Counted from the stretch's first letter, positions 28,968 to 39,972 are shown. The stretch is 39,972 nucleotides of DNA from Sulfurospirillum sp. (GCA_018058685.1 JAGOZL010000006.1:1-39972), one strand, 5' to 3'. The notes: a model not told the origin generated them from the sequence alone. Numbers and translations: made by a program.

Positions 28968-29071
28968 AAGACTTTTTTTAAAATAAAACTGAATACAACC
29001 CCATTGCAACACTTCGTCGATACAATACCCACAACAATACTCGTACGAGAGTCAATAAGGGCTTAAGCGCA

Positions 29072-29473
29072 ATGAAAAAAGAATACCGCGATATGATAGA
29101 GTGTGTTGGACATGGTTTTTGGGAATGGAATCCTATCACCAATGTTCTTTATTTTTCAAAGCAGTGGCAAGGGATGCTTGGGTACGAGCATGAAGGCTTA
29201 GTCCACAGTATTGAAGAGTGGGTTTCACGTATCCATCCTGATGATTTTAGCCACTGCTTTAATGCGTTAGCCACGCTTCTTAGAGGAACCACATCGGTGT
29301 ATCGGAATGAACATCGCATGTTATGTAAAGATGGAAAATACCGATGGTTTTTAGACCAAGCAAGAGTAATTGAACGCAATGCTCAAGGCTATCCTTCTAA
29401 AGTAGTAGGTACGTACACAGATATTGATGAGCTTAAAAGTAGTTTGGAATACTATAAAAAGAGTAACCCTTAA
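29072..29473 (+). CDS. Stand-alone PAS domain protein
   Basis: 133 residues, essentially one PAS fold of the PAS_3 type: 'CVGHGFWEWNPITNVLYFSKQWQGMLGYEHEGLVHSIEEWVSRIHPDDFSHCFNAL', 'RNEHRMLCKDGKYRWFLDQARVIERNAQGYPSKVVGTYTDIDELK' followed by a short helix. There is no kinase, GGDEF or DNA-binding output, so it must signal by protein contact. The next gene starts 11 bases later and is the obvious candidate partner. The Shine-Dalgarno (AAGGG) is about ten bases before the ATG. Confidence 0.85.
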   Translation: MKKEYRDMIECVGHGFWEWNPITNVLYFSKQWQGMLGYEHEGLVHSIEEWVSRIHPDDFSHCFNALATLLRGTTSVYRNEHRMLCKDGKYRWFLDQARVIERNAQGYPSKVVGTYTDIDELKSSLEYYKKSNP

Positions 29474-29484
29474 AAGGAGAGATT

Positions 29485-30270
29485 ATGGTAGTAAATATTG
29501 CACAAAATCAACATTACTTTTTAGAACATAAAGAAGATGTTGCTTTTTCATTTATTCATGATGAGTCCATTCGTGACGTGTTAGAAAGACATGGGATTGA
29601 CCTTTTGTTTTTTGCTCGACACTTTGGTGTTCGCATCGTTGATGCTGTGATGTTAGCATTGTTAAGCCAGCAAAAATCCTCTATCAATATACTCTTAGAC
29701 GTGATGCAACTTTTTTTTGCTCATCATCATATCTGTTTAGATAAGCACGATTTGGATTTTTTGCGTCAAGGATTTAGAAAAACATTTGCCAAATTTGCGA
29801 TAAATCTTGATGCTCACGATATGATTAAAATAGAATCGATGCTAGACGTAGAAGATAAAAAAGGTTTTTTTAGCATCGAGGAGATTGAAGAGTCTAAAGA
29901 ATTGATTGAAGATATGGAGTATTTTCTCTCAAAAATTTCCAGTGAAGAAATTTCGATGGCTGATTTGCACAGCGCAATGGAAAAATGTGTCATTATCACA
30001 GAAACGTATGGGCATTTATTAAGTGAAAAAGAGTCCTGTGCTTTTTTAAGTCGCAAGCTTTTGGATATGAGTGTTTTACTACGCTCTTGGTCAACCTTGA
30101 TGGGAGAAGAAGCCTTTTTTATGGTTTTGGATAGGCTCAAGTCGATTATAGCATTACTTCTTGCCTTTCACGAACAAGCATTAGAGGCTCAAAGTGTTGA
30201 ATACACTGCTTTTGATACGCTTTTTAGTCGTGATATTGAAAGATTATCAGAGATTTTAAAACCAAGATAG
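29485..30270 (+). CDS. Unknown helical protein paired with the PAS protein
   Basis: 261 residues, start preceded by AAAGGAG. I do not recognise a family. It has no signal peptide or clear transmembrane helix. It is acidic, predicted almost all helical from its hydrophobic periodicity, with a His-rich patch 'FFAHHHICLDKHDLDF' around residues 75-90 and strings of Ile/Leu/Glu ('FSIEEIEESKELIEDMEYFLSKISSEEISMADLHSAMEKCV'). Metal binding by the His patch is possible but the hemerythrin motif is absent. It shares a transcript with the PAS gene and ends in a strong bidirectional terminator. Confidence 0.7.
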   Translation: MVVNIAQNQHYFLEHKEDVAFSFIHDESIRDVLERHGIDLLFFARHFGVRIVDAVMLALLSQQKSSINILLDVMQLFFAHHHICLDKHDLDFLRQGFRKTFAKFAINLDAHDMIKIESMLDVEDKKGFFSIEEIEESKELIEDMEYFLSKISSEEISMADLHSAMEKCVIITETYGHLLSEKESCAFLSRKLLDMSVLLRSWSTLMGEEAFFMVLDRLKSIIALLLAFHEQALEAQSVEYTAFDTLFSRDIERLSEILKPR

Positions 30271-30871: not shown

Positions 30872-33001
30872 TTAGCTTTTGAGCATCAAAAGGTCTTTAG
30901 GATAGGTGGAAATATCTTGCGAAGTGGATTCGGTGGAGAGTTCTTCAAGCGTGGTATGAAGATTTACATGTAAAGCAAATTCTTTGATGAGCGCATCTGG
31001 ACCAAAAAGATGCAAATAAGCACTTAAAGACTTTTCCCAATCAATAGCCGACGCACATTCTTGGTAAGCATCTTTAAATTGTGCGATGTAGAGTCTTCTC
31101 ATTAAAAAAGAGACATTAGCTCTGCAAACAGAAATCGCCATATATGGAATCAAAGCAGCATAGACACTTGGATAGGCTTTGGCTTCAATGGCTTCGAGCT
31201 GTTTGGCTTGAAAGTGTAATTTACGCTCTTCAAGCTCTTTGATTGGCTCATAGTTGAGTCCTAGTTTGAATTGGTCTTGTGTTTTAATGGCTTCAAAAAG
31301 TAAATTATGCTCAATTTGGGTTTCAAGCGTACTGAGCGCATTGGAAACTTCTTTGAGTCGTATGGCTTGGTTGCGGTAGGGTAAAAAATCATGAAGCATC
31401 GAGGTTAAACTTAGAGCTTGCATATAGTTTCTTTCTTCTAAAAGCGTGGTAATTTGCAGTTGGAGTTTTTCGCCTAAGAGAAGCACCTTTTTGTACAAAG
31501 GAGTAAATTCTAAAAAAGTATTTTGAGAGACTAATTTAAAATAGAGTGCAAAATTTTTATCACGAATGGCTGATTCGCTAAGCATAAAAATCTTTGAATT
31601 ATGCAGCATTTGCTCTATCATTACTTTTTTTTCTTCAACATCTAAAAAAAGTTTGAGGCTATCTTTTGCCGCTTCTTTGTTTAAGATAGGTTCACGTGAA
31701 AGTAAAATTTGTGCTTTTTGAAGGTTCTTATTCCATAAAGCTTCCATTTGGGCATAGATAGCGCTTTTCTTCAAGATGGGTTTAGAAGAGGCAAGCTCAT
31801 AAGCAGGAGCAAAATGAAAGCTTCTGAAATAGCGATGCAAAGACATCAAATCAGGTTGTAACTCTTCTATTTGGGTAAATTCAAGTTTACATTTAGGGTG
31901 AAATAAAAAAGGTTCAGCCATGTTTTTTGCTTCTTCAAGATGCCCTGAAGAGATAAGGTTGATAATGGTCTCTTTTTGCACCAGCCATTCATCGTAAATA
32001 AGGCGTGTGTCACGGTGCGACATGAGAAAAATATTTTTAGTAAAAAGGATAGAAGCTTCTTTAATTTTTTTTAGCTTGATGTAGAGCTTAAACTGCTCTT
32101 CAAATTCTCGATGATTGAGAAATAAAAGTTCACCTGATTTGAATCCAAAAATAAAATAACGCCCCGTTCGTACAAAAGAGGTGATTCCAAGATACGGGAG
32201 TTTGACAGAAAATAAGACTTCCATACTCTTTACATGTAACGCAAACAAAACGGACTCTCGTGTCCCGATATAAACAAATTTTTTACTGTGTGAGAGGGTT
32301 AAATAAGAGGGCCAAAGATTTTCATCTAAAAGTGTTTGTTTCACAATACGTTCTTTAGCAATATCGATTTTGATGATTTTACCATTGCGTGTGATGGCAA
32401 GGAGAGTATTCTCCGAGATAAATGTCATCATCTCCACCACTTCTTCTAAACGTTTATGAAAAATAACTTCTTGTGTGTTGTAACGGTAAACAATCAACCC
32501 TTTTGAAAAAGAAGCACGTGCGGCTAGCTGGGTCTCTTCATTAAGCGTTACAGCGGTAATAGTGTCACTTGAGCGGGGCAGTTCTGCGATAAGATGCCCA
32601 TCATCGGTGTGAATAATAAATGTACGACCTTTTTCATTGCCTGTAATAAGTATTTTATCACTCTCTCCAAAACGCGCCTTTGTGACACGTGCTCCAGCAT
32701 TGTGTGTGAAGTTGCAAATTTTGTTGAGTTTAGTTTTGGTATCGAGGATATATTCTGCTCCTTGGGTCGAAAAAGAGACATACGCTCTTTTTGCGCCAAG
32801 TGCGGCAGGGCGTTGATAATAATCAAAGAGTGAAGGGGTATACAAGGTACTAAGCGTGGTGCTTTTAATCGTTTCAAGCCGTGTGAGGTCAATTTTGTGC
32901 AATGCATAGTTATTGTCAATCACATGCAGCGTATTTTCATCCGCAAGTGCTATGCGTGAGATGGGAGCGTGAAACGTTATTTCTCGAGAACTTGGCAGCA
33001 T
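30872..33001 (-). CDS. Unknown beta-propeller plus helical-repeat protein
   Basis: 709 residues. About 10-300 are WD40-like strand repeats ('ISRIALADENTLHVIDNNYALHKIDL', 'RVTKARFGESDKILITGNEKGRTFIIHTDDGHLIAEL', 'TITAVTLNEETQLAARASFSKGLIVYRY', 'VVEMMTFISENTLLAITRNGKIIKID', 'SYLTLSHSKKFVYIGTRESVLFALHV'). About 300-709 are amphipathic helices like a TPR or alpha-solenoid. No signal peptide or membrane helix, so probably a cytoplasmic scaffold. It begins 25 bases inside the preceding receiver gene, with GAGGA ten bases before the ATG, so the two are translated together. Palindromes at 30964-30973 and 32230-32239. No family name can be given. Confidence 0.8.
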   Translation of the reverse strand: MLPSSREITFHAPISRIALADENTLHVIDNNYALHKIDLTRLETIKSTTLSTLYTPSLFDYYQRPAALGAKRAYVSFSTQGAEYILDTKTKLNKICNFTHNAGARVTKARFGESDKILITGNEKGRTFIIHTDDGHLIAELPRSSDTITAVTLNEETQLAARASFSKGLIVYRYNTQEVIFHKRLEEVVEMMTFISENTLLAITRNGKIIKIDIAKERIVKQTLLDENLWPSYLTLSHSKKFVYIGTRESVLFALHVKSMEVLFSVKLPYLGITSFVRTGRYFIFGFKSGELLFLNHREFEEQFKLYIKLKKIKEASILFTKNIFLMSHRDTRLIYDEWLVQKETIINLISSGHLEEAKNMAEPFLFHPKCKLEFTQIEELQPDLMSLHRYFRSFHFAPAYELASSKPILKKSAIYAQMEALWNKNLQKAQILLSREPILNKEAAKDSLKLFLDVEEKKVMIEQMLHNSKIFMLSESAIRDKNFALYFKLVSQNTFLEFTPLYKKVLLLGEKLQLQITTLLEERNYMQALSLTSMLHDFLPYRNQAIRLKEVSNALSTLETQIEHNLLFEAIKTQDQFKLGLNYEPIKELEERKLHFQAKQLEAIEAKAYPSVYAALIPYMAISVCRANVSFLMRRLYIAQFKDAYQECASAIDWEKSLSAYLHLFGPDALIKEFALHVNLHTTLEELSTESTSQDISTYPKDLLMLKS
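30964..30973. repeat. TTACATGTAA palindrome in the propeller gene
   Basis: Reads Leu-His-Val-Asn near the C-terminus. Confidence 0.9.
32230..32239. repeat. TTACATGTAA palindrome in the propeller gene
   Basis: Reads Leu-His-Val-Lys at the end of the propeller domain ('ALHVKSM'). Confidence 0.9.
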
Positions 33002-34266
33002 AACTCAAAATCCTCTTGCTTAATAATGCACACAAGATAGCTTTGCGCTTCAAAAGAAGATACCTTAATAAGCACTTCTTGAAGACCTCCGAGTGATTTG
33101 ATGGTTCCTTTAAATGTGATATCACCCTCAAATGGCCATTGCTCCAAAATGGCATAAACACTCTCATAATAATCCATCTCTTCAAAATAAACAATCTCTT
33201 TTAAAGAAGCTGATTTACTAGAGAGTTTTCCAAGCAGTGTTTCATCGCTATGATAAAGAAGCATATCCTCAAGTCCTTTATTATGGGCTTGAAGCAAAAA
33301 GTCATTACTAATCAATGCGCTAGGAAAAGGAAGCATTTTCAAAAAGTGCTCAGAGGTGATTTTTAAAGCTTGCTCCACATCTTCTTTTGCCACTTGTTCT
33401 TGCGCAGTGTGCAAGTCCGTTAAATCTTGAATAATACCTACAAACTCGATAATCTCACCTTCATTGTTTAGAATGGGTACAACGGTTGTGTAGTGGTAGA
33501 GTGGGGTAAGGAATTTGGTTTGATTGGTGAGGTATCCTTGCCACATCTGTTTTGAAAGAATGGTTTTCCACAAATCTTCAAAAACAGTTTTAGGAGTTAG
33601 GGGAGAGCCAATGATATTATGCTTTTTACCGACAATATCTTCTTTGCTATACCCTGTACTTTTGCAAAAGTTTTCATTCACATCTTTGATAATGCCATTG
33701 GTATCAGTGATAGAGACAATGCATGCTTTATCCAAAGCTTCTTTGTAGGATTTTAAAATAGAGCTTTTTAAATCAAGTGTGCGAGATTGAACTTCTGTTA
33801 GACGCTTAAGTTTGACATTGGCGTTTTCAAGGTCTTCGCGATACCTTTGTAACTCCTTTTTGTGGTGTATGTGTTCCACAATCTTGTGTAAAACTTTAAA
33901 AATTTGTTCACTGCGAAGGGGCTTTGTGATGAAATTATCAACGCCTAGGCTAATTAGTTTGACCAAGTATTCAACCTCATTATGCGCTGAGGTGACAAGA
34001 ACAGCTTGTTCTGGATAGAGCGCTTTGATATGCTCAATCATCTCAATTCCATCCATTACAGGCATGCGTATATCGGTAATGACGATATGGTAATGATTTG
34101 CCGCGAGTTTTTCTAGTCCTTCTTGTCCATCTTGTGCTAAATCAACATGTTCAAAAATATCGCTTAAAAAAATACTTACCTCTTCACGCAATGAAAGATC
34201 ATCTTCCACATACAGCACCCTTAAATCTTTACTCCAAGTGATGAGTTGGTCGATTGTATTTTCCAT
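32977..34266 (-). CDS. Response regulator with PAS sensor domains and no recognised output
   Basis: 429 residues. Receiver domain at about 14-130 with acidic pocket 'YVEDD', phosphoacceptor D65 in 'IVITDIRMP' and K115 in 'NFITKPL'. A coiled coil (about 130-175) leads to a PAS domain ('ACIVSITDTNGIIKDVNENFCKSTGYSKEDIVGKKHNIIGSPLTP...FVGIIQDLTDLH', about 185-300). The remaining 130 residues ('PFPSALISNDFLLQAHNKGLEDM...') look like a second, divergent PAS. No kinase, GGDEF, EAL or DNA-binding domain is visible. The ATG at 34266 follows GGAG at five bases. It overlaps the propeller gene by 25 bases and is divergent from the OmpR-type regulator. Confidence 0.85.
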   Translation of the reverse strand: MENTIDQLITWSKDLRVLYVEDDLSLREEVSIFLSDIFEHVDLAQDGQEGLEKLAANHYHIVITDIRMPVMDGIEMIEHIKALYPEQAVLVTSAHNEVEYLVKLISLGVDNFITKPLRSEQIFKVLHKIVEHIHHKKELQRYREDLENANVKLKRLTEVQSRTLDLKSSILKSYKEALDKACIVSITDTNGIIKDVNENFCKSTGYSKEDIVGKKHNIIGSPLTPKTVFEDLWKTILSKQMWQGYLTNQTKFLTPLYHYTTVVPILNNEGEIIEFVGIIQDLTDLHTAQEQVAKEDVEQALKITSEHFLKMLPFPSALISNDFLLQAHNKGLEDMLLYHSDETLLGKLSSKSASLKEIVYFEEMDYYESVYAILEQWPFEGDITFKGTIKSLGGLQEVLIKVSSFEAQSYLVCIIKQEDFELCCQVLEK

Positions 34267-34358
34267 CGTAACTCCGATTTTAATTTCTTTCAAGTATTAT
34301 ATACCCAAAACGTTGCATTTGTGTTATATAATTATGAAAATTTGGAAGGAAGTATTTT
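34267..34358. promoter_or_regulatory. Divergent promoters of the two response-regulator genes
   Basis: TATAAT at 34327-34332 toward the OmpR-type gene, and ATTATA at 34296-34301 (TATAAT on the minus strand) toward the receiver-PAS gene. Both are about 30 bases from their start codons; the 92-base gap would let one regulator control both. Confidence 0.55.
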
Positions 34359-35060
34359 ATGGGGCATTGCCTATCATTACTTTTAGTTGAGGATGATCTC
34401 TCTTTACTCGAAGAATTAAAACTCTTTTTGAGTGATTTTTTTAGCGATATTATCACTGCGACAAGCTCAGAAGAGGCACATAAGCTTTTTTTTGAACGCT
34501 CTTTTGACTTGGTCATCACTGACATCAGGCTTCCGCAACAAAGTGGTCTTAGTTTGGTAGAAAAAATCAAGAAGAGAGTACCTGAACAACGCATCATTGT
34601 GATGTCCGCATATCAAGATATTGATTATTTTTTAAAGAGCATTGAGCTTAAAATTTATGGCTTTTTAACCAAGCCTTTTGATTCACAAAAATTGATTTCC
34701 ATGATGCTCAAAATCACCGCAGAGCTAGAGCAGTCTAAAACTAAAACCCTTTCCAGCCATCGTGTTCAACTCTTAGCATCTTGTGTATTCGACACCTTTA
34801 CAAAATCGTTACATGTAAATGATGTTTTACAAGAATTAACGCAAAAAGAGGAGCAATTATTGGCTTTGTTGGTCAAGCATCGAAACCATTTTGTCTCAAA
34901 TGAGCTGATTGCGAAGATGGTTTGGGAGAGTGATGAGGTGAACAACTCAACCCTACGAGCCCTTATCAAACGATTGCGTGATAAGTTAGGCTCAGAGGAG
35001 AGTATTGCTAATCTTAAAGGAAGAGGGTATAAGCTTAATTCAATTTTTGAGGCTGAGTGA
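34359..35060 (+). CDS. OmpR/PhoB-family response regulator
   Basis: 233 residues. Receiver at about 5-120 with 'LVEDD', phosphoacceptor D55 in 'LVITDIRLPQQSGL' and K105 in 'GFLTKPF'. The C-terminal winged helix (about 135-230) has 'LTQKEEQLLALLVKHRNHFVSNELIAKMVWESDEVNNSTLRALIKRLRDKLGSEESIANLKGRGYKL', the typical OmpR pattern. This is the only DNA-binding output in the signalling island. GGAAGGA lies eight bases before the ATG. Its end overlaps the convergent EAL gene by 26 bases. Palindrome at 34809-34818. Confidence 0.95.
   Translation: MGHCLSLLLVEDDLSLLEELKLFLSDFFSDIITATSSEEAHKLFFERSFDLVITDIRLPQQSGLSLVEKIKKRVPEQRIIVMSAYQDIDYFLKSIELKIYGFLTKPFDSQKLISMMLKITAELEQSKTKTLSSHRVQLLASCVFDTFTKSLHVNDVLQELTQKEEQLLALLVKHRNHFVSNELIAKMVWESDEVNNSTLRALIKRLRDKLGSEESIANLKGRGYKLNSIFEAE
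34809..34818. repeat. TTACATGTAA palindrome in the OmpR-type gene
   Basis: Reads Leu-His-Val-Asn ('SLHVNDV') in the linker before the DNA-binding domain. Confidence 0.9.
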
Positions 35061-36756
35061 AAAAATAACCTTGAGAATAATCAACTCCTAGCGAGCAAAC
35101 TGTTTCAAACTCTTCTTTGGTTGAGACAAATTCTGCGATGACTTTAATGTGCATCTTGTGTGCCATAAAAACGATGCTTTCAACGATATTTTGATTGCGT
35201 TCACTGTGTTCAATGCCTTTAATAAACTGTCCGTCTATTTTAACAAAATCAACCCCGCACTGTTCAAAACGGTTAAAATTTGAGCGGTCACTCCCAAAAT
35301 CATCTAGTGCCAGTTTATAGCCAAGCTCTTTAAACTTTTCCAAACTTTTTAACGCGATACTGTTGGCATCATTTAAAATAATATCTTCTAAAATCTCTAA
35401 CACCACACGAGAGGGGTCAATACCATTTTGTTCTTGTTTGAGTTTTAAAAATTCAATAAATGAAGGGTTGAAAAGGTCTTCATTAGTGATATTAATCGAA
35501 AAATGAATCTCTTTTCCTGAAAAAATCTTGAAGCATTTATTCACCATTGTTCGTGTTAAATTGCTCATTAAACCACTGCGTCTGGCCGCTTCTAAAAAAT
35601 ACGCAGGCGAGATAAATGCCCCTTCTTCTTCAATACGAGCAAGACATTCATATGAGACAATTTCTTGGGTTTTATTATCAACGATGGGGTGAAATAAAGG
35701 GATTACGCGATCTTCTTCTAAAGCAGAGCGAAACTTTTGAATCCACGTTGTTTCCATAAAAATTTTTTGTGTGGAAACACACTCGGCATTATAGGTATTG
35801 ATTTGGTTGGGAAGTCCTGTGAGCCCAGCTTCTTTGAGAGCGGTACGAGCATTGGGTAAGAGCATGGTGGGTTCGTTGGAGCTTGCGATACCACATGAAA
35901 GTGTAACGTAGATTGGATGTTCATTGCCCTCAGCCACGGGTGTTTCTTTGAAAAATGCTTGAATTTGAGTGGCTAAAGAGAGTGGGTCGATGAGTAATTT
36001 ATCGCATAAAATGACAAATTCATCGGAATTGTATTTAAATAAGTTAACCTCTTCTGGAAGATTGTAGTGTAAAAACTCTCCAACTTTTGCTAAAACGCTA
36101 TCGCCTAGTTCAAAGCCATAGGTTTGGTTGATAGTGCTTAAATCATCGATATTGTAAAGAATCGCACAGATTTTTTGTCCCTTAGGCAGCGCATCAAGAT
36201 AGTGATAAAGCATCGTGGCATTTTGAAGTTTTGTGACTTTATCAATCGTTAAAAACTCGTGCATTTTTTCATAACTGCGCTCTAACGCAACCGTTTTTTC
36301 TTCAACCATCTCTTGAAGCTTTGTTTTATACACTTCATTTTCTTTGCGGACATTAACCATCTCAGCTGTTTTATATAAGGTATCAATCAGCTGTTCAAAA
36401 TCGATAGGCTTTAAAATATAGCCCGTAATATTGTTGCGAATACTCTCTAAAAAATATTCCGTTTCATTGTGCGCAGAGACAACCATCACCGCTTGGTCAG
36501 GGTTTTGAAGATGAATATTTTTCAGCAACTCGATACCATTCATAAACGGCATATTCAAATCCGTTATAACGATGTCATACGCAAAAGGATTTTGCTGATA
36601 GGCTTCAAACGCAACTTTGCCATTGTCACATTCTTCGACATTGAAGCGAAGATCTCTTAAAATGGAAGCAGTGGTTTCTCTTAAATCAAGGTCATCTTCC
36701 GCATAAAGAATACGCATATGTGAACTAAGATTGATTAAGGCTTCTAAATTCTTCAC
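35035..36756 (-). CDS. Response regulator with degenerate GGDEF and EAL domains (probable c-di-GMP phosphodiesterase)
   Basis: 573 residues. Receiver at about 14-130 with 'YAEDD', D66 in 'IVITDLNMP' and K116 in 'YILKPI'. The GGDEF domain (about 165-325) has NSDEF at 243-247 in place of GGDEF, so it is unlikely to make c-di-GMP. The EAL domain (about 340-573) has ECL (370-372) for EAL but keeps the catalytic set: Asn in 'INITNEDL', Glu in 'VLEILED', DD in 'LALDDFGS', Lys in 'VKIDGQFI', Glu in 'IAEFVS' and Gln in 'YSQGYFF'. It probably hydrolyses c-di-GMP under phosphorylation control. Start is GTG, overlapping the kinase stop by four bases, with AAGGAG about ten bases upstream. Confidence 0.92.
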   Translation of the reverse strand: MKNLEALINLSSHMRILYAEDDLDLRETTASILRDLRFNVEECDNGKVAFEAYQQNPFAYDIVITDLNMPFMNGIELLKNIHLQNPDQAVMVVSAHNETEYFLESIRNNITGYILKPIDFEQLIDTLYKTAEMVNVRKENEVYKTKLQEMVEEKTVALERSYEKMHEFLTIDKVTKLQNATMLYHYLDALPKGQKICAILYNIDDLSTINQTYGFELGDSVLAKVGEFLHYNLPEEVNLFKYNSDEFVILCDKLLIDPLSLATQIQAFFKETPVAEGNEHPIYVTLSCGIASSNEPTMLLPNARTALKEAGLTGLPNQINTYNAECVSTQKIFMETTWIQKFRSALEEDRVIPLFHPIVDNKTQEIVSYECLARIEEEGAFISPAYFLEAARRSGLMSNLTRTMVNKCFKIFSGKEIHFSINITNEDLFNPSFIEFLKLKQEQNGIDPSRVVLEILEDIILNDANSIALKSLEKFKELGYKLALDDFGSDRSNFNRFEQCGVDFVKIDGQFIKGIEHSERNQNIVESIVFMAHKMHIKVIAEFVSTKEEFETVCSLGVDYSQGYFFTQPQKLN

Positions 36757-38918
36757 GCGTTCTTTTCTCCTTGAAAGGTAATGACAAATTTTGCACCCTT
36801 ACTTGTATTTGAAGCACTAAGTGTCCCGTGGCAATGCTGTTCGATAATCATCTTTGACATATAAAGTCCTAGTCCCGTTCCATTTTTCTCATTTTTAGTT
36901 GAAAAATAAGGGTCAAAAATCTTCTCCATAATCTCAGGCTTAATACCGCCTGCATTATCTTCGACTTCGATGATAAAATGATTTTCTTCTTCGTAAGCAC
37001 GAACGAAAATTGTACCATCTTCTATCTTATGTTCCAAAATAGCATCATGTGCATTTTTGATGATATTCATCAGCACTTGAGTGATTTTTTTGCCATAAGT
37101 AACGAATGTGGCGTGCGACTCATTTTTTACATGTAAAGCGATATTGTTGATTTCAAGGCTCTTTCCGATAATACCAAAGGTATTTTGCAAAATACTCTCA
37201 ATCGATACTTCTTCATGCTCTTGTTCTGGCTTAAAAAAATTGCGAAAGTCATCAATGGTGGAAGTGAGGTATTTGAGATAATTATCCATCTTCGCAATAG
37301 AACTTTCTAAGTATGCTTTATGCTCAAGTCTGCCTTCATCCGTGTTTAAATCAAATTTATTGAGCGTTGCTTTGAGTTTGATGCTCATCAGAACTGTTCC
37401 AATGGCTCCCAAAGGTTGGCGCCATTGGTGCGCTATCATGCTGATCATCTCACCCATTTGCGCAAGGCGTGATTGGTGAATCATGATTTTTTGGGCTTCC
37501 ATGTTTTTCTCAACGCCCTGAGCGATTTTACGCTCCATCGAGCCATAAAGCTCTTGCAAAGTTTTACTCATGGTCGTGAAGTTTTCGATTAAAGTATCGA
37601 TTTCTAAAATACCTGAGCGCTCCAGCTTGGTAATAGAAAGTTTGCCTTTTAAATCTTTCGTGGCTTCAATGAGGTTTTGAATAGGGCTTAGTATACGATT
37701 GGAAAAATCTTTGGAACGCTTGATGATAAGCACTAAAAAGACAAGATAAAAAAGAGCCATAAAGATAAGTGCAAAGTAACCAATGGTATCGGTTTTTGCT
37801 TTGAGTGCTTGTGAAGGGGCTAGCAAAGAGTCTTCATCTAAAAGTAAAATCAGTCGCCAATCCGTCTCTTCAATACTATTTTGTGTAATAATCAAACGAT
37901 TTTGTTTACTTTCAAAACGGGATAAGTTTTCGTTGTTTTTAATGATTTGGTTGAGGTATTGGCTTAAGCTATTGGTGTTTTGAAAAAGATTGAAATCTTT
38001 TGGCTTGGCGATGGTTTGAACCACAGGCGCTTCATACGTGTGCGATGTCAGCTCCCTAAGCCCCAACAAAGGCTCTAACGCACTGTCCATAGCTAAGATG
38101 TTGCCTGATTTATCCACGAGCATGGCAGAAGAAGTGTAGGGGAGTTTGATGGATAATATATTGGTGATAAGTTTATCAATCGTCACATCGATACCTACAA
38201 CACCTTCTAAAAATTCACCTTTATACACAGGAGCAATAGCACTTATCATCCATCCCGCACCCGCTGGGTCAAGGTAGGCTTCTGTCCAGACCACTTTTTT
38301 AGAAGGGTTATGCTTCGCATCAGCAAGGTAGTAAAAGTTATAGATAGGAATATCGATGTCATGCGGATATTGCTCTAGGGCATCTTTCATATACGGACAA
38401 AGTCGGTTCATCGAGTCAAAACTGTTGAAATAAAGCTGTGCGATATTTTCATTGCTGTGTAAAACAGAGTTATACAAATCGTCCATCGACTCTGTCGCAA
38501 TGGCCTTTTCTAAGCGATTGGGGTTGCTTTTTTGAACATTGGAAAAGAAAAGGGTACATGAGTTCTCTTTTCGCTTAGCATTGACTATGACACCATCGTT
38601 TGTAACGGTGTAAATTGGGTCATTTGTTTTTACATGTAAAGGGTTGTAAGAGGAAAAAAACGTTTCATGCCCTTTTTGAAATAAGGCGGTAATGTTTGCA
38701 ATAGAGCGAAATTCATTGTTTACGATGGTCGCGGAACGCTGAGAAATCTCTTTGATATTGGCTTTTGTCTCTTCAATCAATGCTTTTTGTGTTGCTTCGT
38801 TCACAAAGGCATTACTCCAAAAGTAAGCCACTAAAAGCATTGTTTCGATAATCAAAAGAGGAAAAATAATCGATTTTAGGTACTCTTGTTTGATAAGATT
38901 TTGAAGTGTGTTTTTCAT
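36753..38918 (-). CDS. Membrane sensor histidine kinase with dCache-like periplasmic domain
   Basis: 721 residues. Transmembrane helices at about 17-36 and 378-399 enclose a 340-residue periplasmic domain with the double-Cache pattern ('PIYNFYYLADAKHNPSKKVVWTEAYLDPAGAGWMISAIAPVYKGEFLEGVVGIDVTIDKL', 'SAMLVDKSGNILAMD'). A HAMP-like linker follows. The transmitter has the phospho-His H497 in 'MISMIAHQWRQPLG', N-box 'QVLMNIIKNAHDAI', 'VEDNAGGI' and 'GTGLGLYMSKMII'. Cache domains bind small organic ligands; which one is unknown. It is coupled to the EAL regulator by GTGA. Palindromes at 37127-37136 and 38630-38639. Confidence 0.93.
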   Translation of the reverse strand: MKNTLQNLIKQEYLKSIIFPLLIIETMLLVAYFWSNAFVNEATQKALIEETKANIKEISQRSATIVNNEFRSIANITALFQKGHETFFSSYNPLHVKTNDPIYTVTNDGVIVNAKRKENSCTLFFSNVQKSNPNRLEKAIATESMDDLYNSVLHSNENIAQLYFNSFDSMNRLCPYMKDALEQYPHDIDIPIYNFYYLADAKHNPSKKVVWTEAYLDPAGAGWMISAIAPVYKGEFLEGVVGIDVTIDKLITNILSIKLPYTSSAMLVDKSGNILAMDSALEPLLGLRELTSHTYEAPVVQTIAKPKDFNLFQNTNSLSQYLNQIIKNNENLSRFESKQNRLIITQNSIEETDWRLILLLDEDSLLAPSQALKAKTDTIGYFALIFMALFYLVFLVLIIKRSKDFSNRILSPIQNLIEATKDLKGKLSITKLERSGILEIDTLIENFTTMSKTLQELYGSMERKIAQGVEKNMEAQKIMIHQSRLAQMGEMISMIAHQWRQPLGAIGTVLMSIKLKATLNKFDLNTDEGRLEHKAYLESSIAKMDNYLKYLTSTIDDFRNFFKPEQEHEEVSIESILQNTFGIIGKSLEINNIALHVKNESHATFVTYGKKITQVLMNIIKNAHDAILEHKIEDGTIFVRAYEEENHFIIEVEDNAGGIKPEIMEKIFDPYFSTKNEKNGTGLGLYMSKMIIEQHCHGTLSASNTSKGAKFVITFQGEKNA
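37127..37136. repeat. TTACATGTAA palindrome in the dCache kinase gene
   Basis: Reads Leu-His-Val-Lys in the ATP-binding domain ('ALHVKNE'). The tandem kinase has unrelated sequence at the corresponding place. Confidence 0.9.
38630..38639. repeat. TTACATGTAA palindrome in the dCache kinase gene
   Basis: Reads Leu-His-Val-Lys in the periplasmic domain ('PLHVKTN'). Confidence 0.9.
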
Positions 38919-39972
38919 ACGATATCCTCTTTAAGTTCAATCACAAATTTTGCACCCTCTTGTGTGTTGTGCGCGTAAATATTTCCTTGGCAATGCTCTT
39001 CAATGATGATTTTTGACATATAAAGACCCAATCCTGTTCCATTTTTTTCATTTTTTGTTGAAAAATAAGGCTCAAAAATATGTGGCAAAATATGCGGCGC
39101 AATGCCTCCCGCGTTATCTTCAATTTCAATGATCTGATACCCATCTTTTTCTTTTGTGGTAATCGTAACTTGCGGATGATAGACACCACGTTCTTTTATC
39201 ACATCTTCTGCATTTTTGAGAATATTTAGAATGACTTGAGTGAGTTCGTTGGCGTAGGTGGTGATTTTTCTGTGCGCATGTTGCTCAATTGTTAAATGGA
39301 TACCATTAATTTCAAGGGCTTTACCAATAATCTCAAGGGTTCGATTAACCAAAGTAATGGTAACAACGCTCTCTTGGTGTTTGTCGGGCTTGAAAAAATT
39401 ACGAAAATCATCAATAGTGTTGGTTAAAAAGCGTACATATTCTTCGATTTTATGCAAAGATTCATTGGTAAAGAGTTTGTGTGCTTCTCTGCCCTCATCA
39501 CTGGTTAAATCAAATTTATTGAGTAAAAGTTTGAGTTTTAAGCCTGCGACCACTGCGGAGATAGAGCCTAAAGGCTGTCGCCATTGGTGGGCTATCATGC
39601 TAATCATTTCGCCCATTTGTGCCAGACGTGATTGTTGTAAGATGTGTTGGTCTTTTTGTCTGTTTTTTTGTACCTCTTCTTCGATGCGTTTTTCAAGGTT
39701 TTGATTGATAGCAACGAGTTCTAAGTGATTTTTACACGCGCAAATCGCATTTTCAAGTTTGGCACTAAACGAAGAGATAATCGCTTTGATAAAGGACAAG
39801 TCACTTTCGTTGGCATAAAAAACAAAGACAATCCAATCGTTTTTTAACTTTACATGTAAAAGGTTTTTTCCACTCTCTTTATCGTGCACGATGGTATAAT
39901 TTTCCATCCTCTCATAAGGAGGTGTGAGTAAAGGTTGAAATGATTTTTTGCCATAAAGGCACAAGGGGAGAT
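38915..39972 (-). CDS. Sensor histidine kinase, N-terminus cut by the window edge
   Basis: About 350 residues visible; the frame is open to the edge, so the true start and part of the sensor domain lie outside. The visible N-terminal part ('NYTIVHDKESGKNLLHVKLKNDWIVFVFYANESDLSFIKAIISSFSAKLENAI') looks like the end of a cytoplasmic sensor domain and a coiled coil. The transmitter has 'RLAQMGEMISMIAHQWRQPLGS' with the phospho-His, 'QVILNILKNAEDVI', 'IEDNAGGIAPHILPHIFEPYFSTKNEKNGTGLGLYMSKIIIEEHC'. It is closely related to the transmitter of the next kinase and overlaps it by four bases (ATGA). Palindrome at 39850-39859. Confidence 0.9.
   Translation of the reverse strand, partial: LPLCLYGKKSFQPLLTPPYERMENYTIVHDKESGKNLLHVKLKNDWIVFVFYANESDLSFIKAIISSFSAKLENAICACKNHLELVAINQNLEKRIEEEVQKNRQKDQHILQQSRLAQMGEMISMIAHQWRQPLGSISAVVAGLKLKLLLNKFDLTSDEGREAHKLFTNESLHKIEEYVRFLTNTIDDFRNFFKPDKHQESVVTITLVNRTLEIIGKALEINGIHLTIEQHAHRKITTYANELTQVILNILKNAEDVIKERGVYHPQVTITTKEKDGYQIIEIEDNAGGIAPHILPHIFEPYFSTKNEKNGTGLGLYMSKIIIEEHCQGNIYAHNTQEGAKFVIELKEDIV
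39850..39859. repeat. TTACATGTAA palindrome in the partial kinase gene
   Basis: Reads Leu-His-Val-Lys ('LLHVKLKN'). Confidence 0.9.

Follow-up and report, generated by a model that had tools for sequence, protein, structure and literature searches.

A signalling island of Sulfurospirillum with two kinases, three receivers and a recurrent pairing of a receiver C-terminal domain with a propeller protein

The window, that is the whole stretch of DNA analysed here, coincides with one entire contig, C72 (39972 b), in a draft genome of Sulfurospirillum sp. totalling 1.82 Mb. It contains an island of two-component signalling genes that runs up to the contig end. In the direction of transcription, the minus strand encodes K1, a cytosolic histidine kinase (38915..39970; Pfam HATPase_c, 4.9e-19), K2, a membrane histidine kinase with a dCache periplasmic sensor and a HAMP domain (36753..38918; Pfam dCache_1/MCP-like_PDC_1, HAMP and HATPase_c), and a response regulator ending in an EAL domain (35035..36756). 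An OmpR/PhoB-type response regulator (34359..35060; Pfam REC and Trans_reg_C) lies on the plus strand. Back on the minus strand are a response regulator with a PAS domain, here called the PAS receiver (32977..34263; Pfam REC 9.5e-24, PAS_9 2.8e-12), and a propeller-solenoid protein of 709 aa (30872..33001), recognised from WD40-type matches, an AlphaFold2 (AF2) model and Foldseek.

An earlier reading of the sequence (the original prediction) had given this gene order together with the overlaps between genes, and all of these proved exact when the coordinates were recomputed. K1 and K2 share 4 nucleotides (nt) at 38915-38918, K2 and the EAL gene 4 nt at 36753-36756, the EAL and OmpR genes 26 nt at 35035-35060, and the PAS receiver and propeller genes 25 nt at 32977-33001. 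The OmpR gene starts at 34359 and is divergent from the PAS receiver, whose ATG is at 34263, with an in-frame TTG at 34293. Pfam bears out the kinase, receiver and propeller domains. What had been called an EAL receiver does have REC (1.6e-24) and EAL (8.1e-64) domains, with an additional, degenerate GGDEF domain (2.5e-17) between them, and is thus a REC-GGDEF-EAL protein. The observation as a whole is confirmed, and its interpretation, that one ligand signal could reach transcription, cyclic di-GMP (c-di-GMP) and an unknown scaffold at once, is partly supported.

The original prediction had named synteny across the genus as a check, and the island passes it: of 23 other Sulfurospirillum genomes, most keep the order K1-K2-EAL-OmpR-PAS receiver-propeller, generally with peptidyl-prolyl isomerase and LexA-like genes next to it, and where a gene for a FIST protein precedes K1 (see below) the arrangement FIST-K1-K2-EAL / OmpR / PAS-propeller is maintained. 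K1 is found in 24/24 genomes (partial in G006, interrupted in G002). K2 is found in 21 of the 24, being lost from G013, G014 and G015, which retain the EAL and OmpR genes. The full-length PAS receiver and the propeller protein occur in an identical set of 17 genomes. The 25-nt overlap between their genes is identical in 13/14 loci measured within the genus, the remaining one being masked by a run of N; an apparent gap in the propeller gene of G005 is likewise an N run of the assembly and not biology. A sister-genus genome (G031) keeps EAL-OmpR-PAS-propeller, with FIST-FIST-K1 on another contig.

In the PAS receiver (orthologues 57-75%), a Pfam scan identified no DNA-binding or enzymatic output domain. 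Its final ~140 residues form a C-terminal domain (CTD; 32980..33426, minus strand), identified by profile-profile comparison and by its linkage across the order. The CTD matches, at 95.8% and E 7e-9, the C-termini of PAS proteins whose genes immediately precede distant propeller genes. Two such distant PAS proteins give weak Pfam PAS_8 scores in the CTD region, and the CTD is therefore taken as a divergent PAS-like domain.

A CTD profile was searched against 299 Campylobacterales genomes, and loci outside the family were counted at E<=1e-9. There were 16 such loci, two of which lie at contig edges and one of which was left aside, leaving 13 that are testable. The CTD adjoins a propeller-family gene in 11 of these 13, with the propeller gene immediately downstream on the same strand in 10 and divergent in one. 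When the loci that seeded the profile (G040 and G056) are removed, the figure is 9/11. Weaker CTD matches also stand beside a propeller gene in G232, G223, G192 and a second locus of G304, and without one in G164. Same-strand pairs of CTD and propeller are found in eight families. The domains in front of the CTD vary: REC-PAS in L139, L141 and L152, REC only in L140, L160 and L166, and PAS, or PAS-PAS (L148, L150), in others. In L055 the CTD follows HAMP-PAS in a membrane protein whose periplasmic part carries a CxxCH motif. At L160 a single operon holds kinases, REC-CTD, propeller and REC-GGDEF-EAL, and at L166 the CTD-propeller pair lies beside kinases.

Genomes of Sulfurospirillum carry either both the CTD and the propeller protein or neither. 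In G002, G004 and G022 both are lost and the receiver is left as a 147-aa stump. In G028 the receiver is lost, and a 103-aa CTD-like remnant (a weak match; hidden Markov model E 0.008) stays with the propeller gene, its 25-nt overlap onto that gene unchanged. It is this joint pattern of retention and loss, more than the shared operon, that argues for the propeller protein as the partner of the CTD. The scaffold of the original prediction can thus be given a sharper form: the CTD of the PAS receiver and the propeller protein are a recurrent pair, in which we propose, from the sequence comparisons, that the CTD is an adaptor to the propeller protein. In two related genomes, two tandem CTD proteins lie directly upstream of a single propeller gene (L062:9673-12326 and L163:6524-8114), which hints at alternative inputs into one effector.

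The propeller family is present in 133 of the 299 Campylobacterales genomes, with several copies in some; no relative was found in the plasmid records searched. WD40-type similarity covers residues about 91-212. Both the propeller protein and the PAS receiver were modelled with AF2 from five sequences each, and because of this small input the two models are of low confidence. The propeller protein is predicted to be β-structured over residues 1-296 and to consist of helix pairs over 297-690 (mean pLDDT 63, pTM 0.30). Foldseek with this low-confidence model returned propellers, the best full-length matches being subunits of the intraflagellar transport complex IFT-A at TM-scores of about 0.15. 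The helical half has no Pfam match beyond chance level, and a weak match to the COPI alpha C-terminus in one homologue was not used. The model suggests, at low confidence, a β-propeller followed by an α-solenoid, as in membrane coats; this describes a layout and not homology. A second conserved context of the family is seen in several taxonomic families, where propeller-solenoid relatives have ilvA (threonine dehydratase), a ppx-like gene or both as neighbours (L061, L064, L065 and L066).

Of all kinases in the genome, K1 and K2 are most closely related to one another (53% over 266 aa, with the runner-up at 42%), which makes them nearest paralogues. Compared with its orthologues (about 405 aa, 61-74% identical), K1 is short of about 55 residues at the N-terminus, because the window is a whole contig and the gene runs off its end. 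Its H-box is AHQWRQPL. The helix of the dimerisation and histidine phosphotransfer (DHp) domain that follows the phospho-accepting histidine is nearly identical in K1 and K2 of several relatives, for example GSISAVAASIKLKT and GSISAVTASIKLKQ. The 4-nt overlap between the two genes is not general, since some relatives have gaps of a few nt.

In relatives, the gene directly upstream of K1 on the same strand encodes a stand-alone FIST N-FIST C protein, and some have two FIST genes in tandem there. The FIST gene adjoins K1 in 21/22 Sulfurospirillum genomes whose contig permits a look, the exception being G009, so that by synteny this strain presumably has a FIST gene upstream of K1 too. No H-NOX (HNOB) gene was found beside the kinase, the neighbour of K1 in relatives being FIST N + FIST C. 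We also considered whether the FIST proteins are NosP, as defined by the NCBIfam equivalog model NF041558 with its cut-off of 450 bits. Two of them score 30.9 and 18.8 bits and a third gives no match, and the identification was rejected. The proposal of one ligand signal is too simple, because FIST (with the N-terminal region of K1) and the periplasmic dCache domain of K2 make at least two inputs.

The three receivers had been described as paralogues on the basis of a SAHNE-type motif at the same place in each. This motif is not diagnostic, because other receivers of the genome carry such motifs (SAHNESSY, SAHTDKEY, TAFTETEY, TAYSEAEY), and as evidence for paralogy specific to the island it was rejected. 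The kinship itself is borne out by a tree that includes 43 of the 53 receivers in the genome as well as orthologues. The three island receivers form a small clade (support 97/95) together with one further receiver, L096, and with counterparts from this module in other families, and the other receivers of the genome fall outside it. The branching order within the clade is weak.

The alpha-1 helix of receivers sets their choice of kinase partner. In this helix the PAS and OmpR receivers are 67% identical, which ranks first among the 903 receiver pairs of the genome, compared to 35% for the remainder of the domain. The PAS and EAL receivers rank 8th. The pattern persists in relatives and is weaker in the sister genus. 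Together with the near relationship of K1 and K2 and the receiver clade, this indirectly supports a shared wiring of the two kinases and the three receivers. In G018 the EAL and OmpR genes have an extra stand-alone receiver of 181 aa between them (L077:736-1281; 55% against the PAS receiver), the full PAS receiver and propeller genes of that genome being on a separate contig.

The divergent promoter between the OmpR and PAS receiver genes contains a direct repeat, GTTGCAT-N4-GTTATAT (34312..34329, plus strand), conserved as GTTGYAT-N4-GTTRTAT in most loci of the genus. Its 11-bp pitch is the spacing typical of PhoB-type boxes. A relaxed form, GTTRYAWNNNNGTTRYAW, matches exactly 7 times in the whole genome, against 1 match for a reversed-pattern control. 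Two of the 7 are inside the window (at 34312 and 28993), where 0.035 would be expected from first-order composition. Similar repeats, many with one mismatch, are found upstream of FIST in most relatives. Given repeats at the island promoters, the island OmpR protein probably regulates the island. Perhaps it regulates motility genes as well. Exact repeats also lie in five genomes (L193, L194, L195, L196 and L198) where the genes for an EamA transporter and an HD-domain protein diverge, and others are found upstream of 4HB chemoreceptors (L197, L201 and L205). These genes might form a motility/c-di-GMP regulon controlled by the OmpR protein. Candidate sites upstream of cheV were discarded: they are about 183-204 bp away and, in most genomes inspected, within the preceding coding frame.

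In the REC-GGDEF-EAL protein of the window all EAL catalytic motifs (E, N, E, DD, K, E, Q) are present. An intact GG(D/E)EF motif is absent, being NSDEF in this protein and in nearly every orthologue scanned. Intact EAL motifs with a lost GGDEF motif point to breakdown of c-di-GMP as the predicted activity, and the protein is a predicted c-di-GMP phosphodiesterase response regulator.

The island, probably a branched system, resembles known networks in its wiring. In the Hno network of Shewanella oneidensis, HnoK and HnoS signal to HnoB, HnoC and HnoD (PMC6335343), and two kinases of differing input converge on a transcription factor, an EAL phosphodiesterase and a third regulator. The island encodes a gene set of this kind, two kinases and three response regulators, of which one is of EAL type and one a transcription factor. 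The input in Hno is however H-NOX, and in the Sulfurospirillum island FIST and dCache; and whereas HnoD is a degenerate HD-GYP protein that inhibits HnoB, the third regulator here is REC-PAS-CTD paired with a propeller-solenoid protein. The Legionella NosP-NahK-NarR system (PMC8846402) also combines a stand-alone FIST protein, a kinase and a REC-GGDEF-EAL protein, but it has one output and the island three, and the island FIST proteins fall below the NosP cut-off. A link to PceS/PceP, the tetrachloroethene (PCE)-sensing system of Sulfurospirillum, was rejected, as that locus is in an organohalide region and the paper (PMC7755780) names no FIST or EAL genes. In 2010 the membrane-coat-like layout, an N-terminal β-propeller with C-terminal stacked helices, had been reported only from eukaryotes and from bacteria of the Planctomycetes-Verrucomicrobia-Chlamydiae (PVC) group (PMC2799638). 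The PVC proteins have a propeller followed by stacked helices, the order that the low-confidence model of the island protein suggests, but no signalling partner is described for them. No counterpart of the third branch is described in the literature searched, and the novelty lies in this CTD-propeller branch.

On the basis of these comparisons, we hypothesise that the island works as a branched two-component system in which two or more inputs feed three outputs, one of them the CTD-propeller branch; we give this reading somewhat better than an even chance. The kinase cores of K1, working with the FIST sensor, and of K2, with its dCache sensor, would have arisen by duplication, and the two kinases would phosphorylate overlapping sets of receivers. 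The OmpR/PhoB-type regulator would occupy the 11-bp-pitch repeat in the operon promoters of the island, which would make the system autoregulated. The REC-GGDEF-EAL protein, its cyclase domain dead, would act as a phosphodiesterase and lower c-di-GMP. In the third output, phosphorylation, and perhaps a PAS ligand too, would alter how the CTD binds the translationally coupled propeller-solenoid protein, which is proposed to be the real effector or scaffold of this branch.

Several observations weigh against this hypothesis. The kinase helices are more diverged in the window species than in its relatives. The contig stops short of where FIST would lie, so that the draft genome does not show it, and the sole FIST match in the genome is elsewhere, within a longer protein. 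The receiver tree rests on few columns, and its clade includes L096, which is encoded elsewhere in the genome; a kinase or receiver from outside the island may therefore participate. A rival reading is an ordinary cluster of separate two-component pairs, with one receiver per kinase, sharing promoters and no common signal. Sulfurospirillum genomes have dozens of receivers each and such clusters are common, and K2 has been lost from three genomes in which its EAL and OmpR neighbours persist. Two kinases for three receivers are, however, incompatible with strict pairing, and conserved synteny, the near-identical kinase helices of relatives and the highest alpha-1 similarity of the genome, that of the PAS and OmpR receivers, all speak for common wiring; we consider separate pairs a real possibility, but a rather doubtful one.

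Also unfavourable to the branched system is that two complete genomes, G007 and G014, have an interrupted propeller gene despite an intact PAS receiver (L049:5510-7659 and L050:5754-7909 are the interrupted genes, through decay or sequencing error), and that many members of the propeller family stand at a distance from any CTD, next to ilvA or a gene for a polysaccharide deacetylase, so that the family has other roles. Both facts would fit a propeller protein that is an unrelated passenger in the PAS-receiver operon, coupled for stoichiometry only or by chance. We think this unlikely, since the adjacency to the CTD recurs in eight families with differing neighbours and inputs, and the co-loss within the genus is complete. 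It is more improbable still that the PAS receiver has no output of its own and serves as a phosphate sink or buffer for the other two branches: this would account for its lack of an effector domain and for the three genomes that retain only a receiver stump, but would leave unexplained both the conserved CTD with its propeller pairing and the REC-CTD-propeller operons of family f17.

The outputs of two-component systems are of few kinds: DNA binding, nucleotide enzymes, binding to flagellar-motor proteins, and RNA binding. The CTD-propeller pairing looks like an undescribed kind. We tentatively suggest, while considering it on balance improbable, that the CTD with a coat-like propeller/solenoid protein is a general signalling output module of the Campylobacterota, through which different sensors, phosphorylated receivers among them, control scaffold assembly or cargo binding. 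If so, the output would be a cytosolic coat-like scaffold and would not act on transcription, c-di-GMP or the flagellar motor, and an adaptor plus propeller/solenoid protein behind a receiver, a PAS domain or a membrane sensor would be an additional kind of output, in a phylum that holds pathogens and abundant sulfur and vent bacteria. The pairing also gives a handle on a large uncharacterised family of propeller proteins, and the island, with two kinases and three receivers, is a compact system for studying branching.

A small PAS gene lies divergently beside the FIST gene in L036, L039, L042 and L077, and its product is likely to be a satellite of the locus, judged by this proximity. In the window, the small PAS protein (29072..29473, plus strand; Pfam PAS_3 5.5e-23) and a 261-aa protein without known family form a two-gene unit (29072-30270). 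This unit lies behind the second PhoB-type direct repeat (28993..29010, minus strand), with 61 bp between this upstream repeat and the small PAS gene. The small PAS gene thus seems to have been relocated to the opposite end of the island in the window genome.

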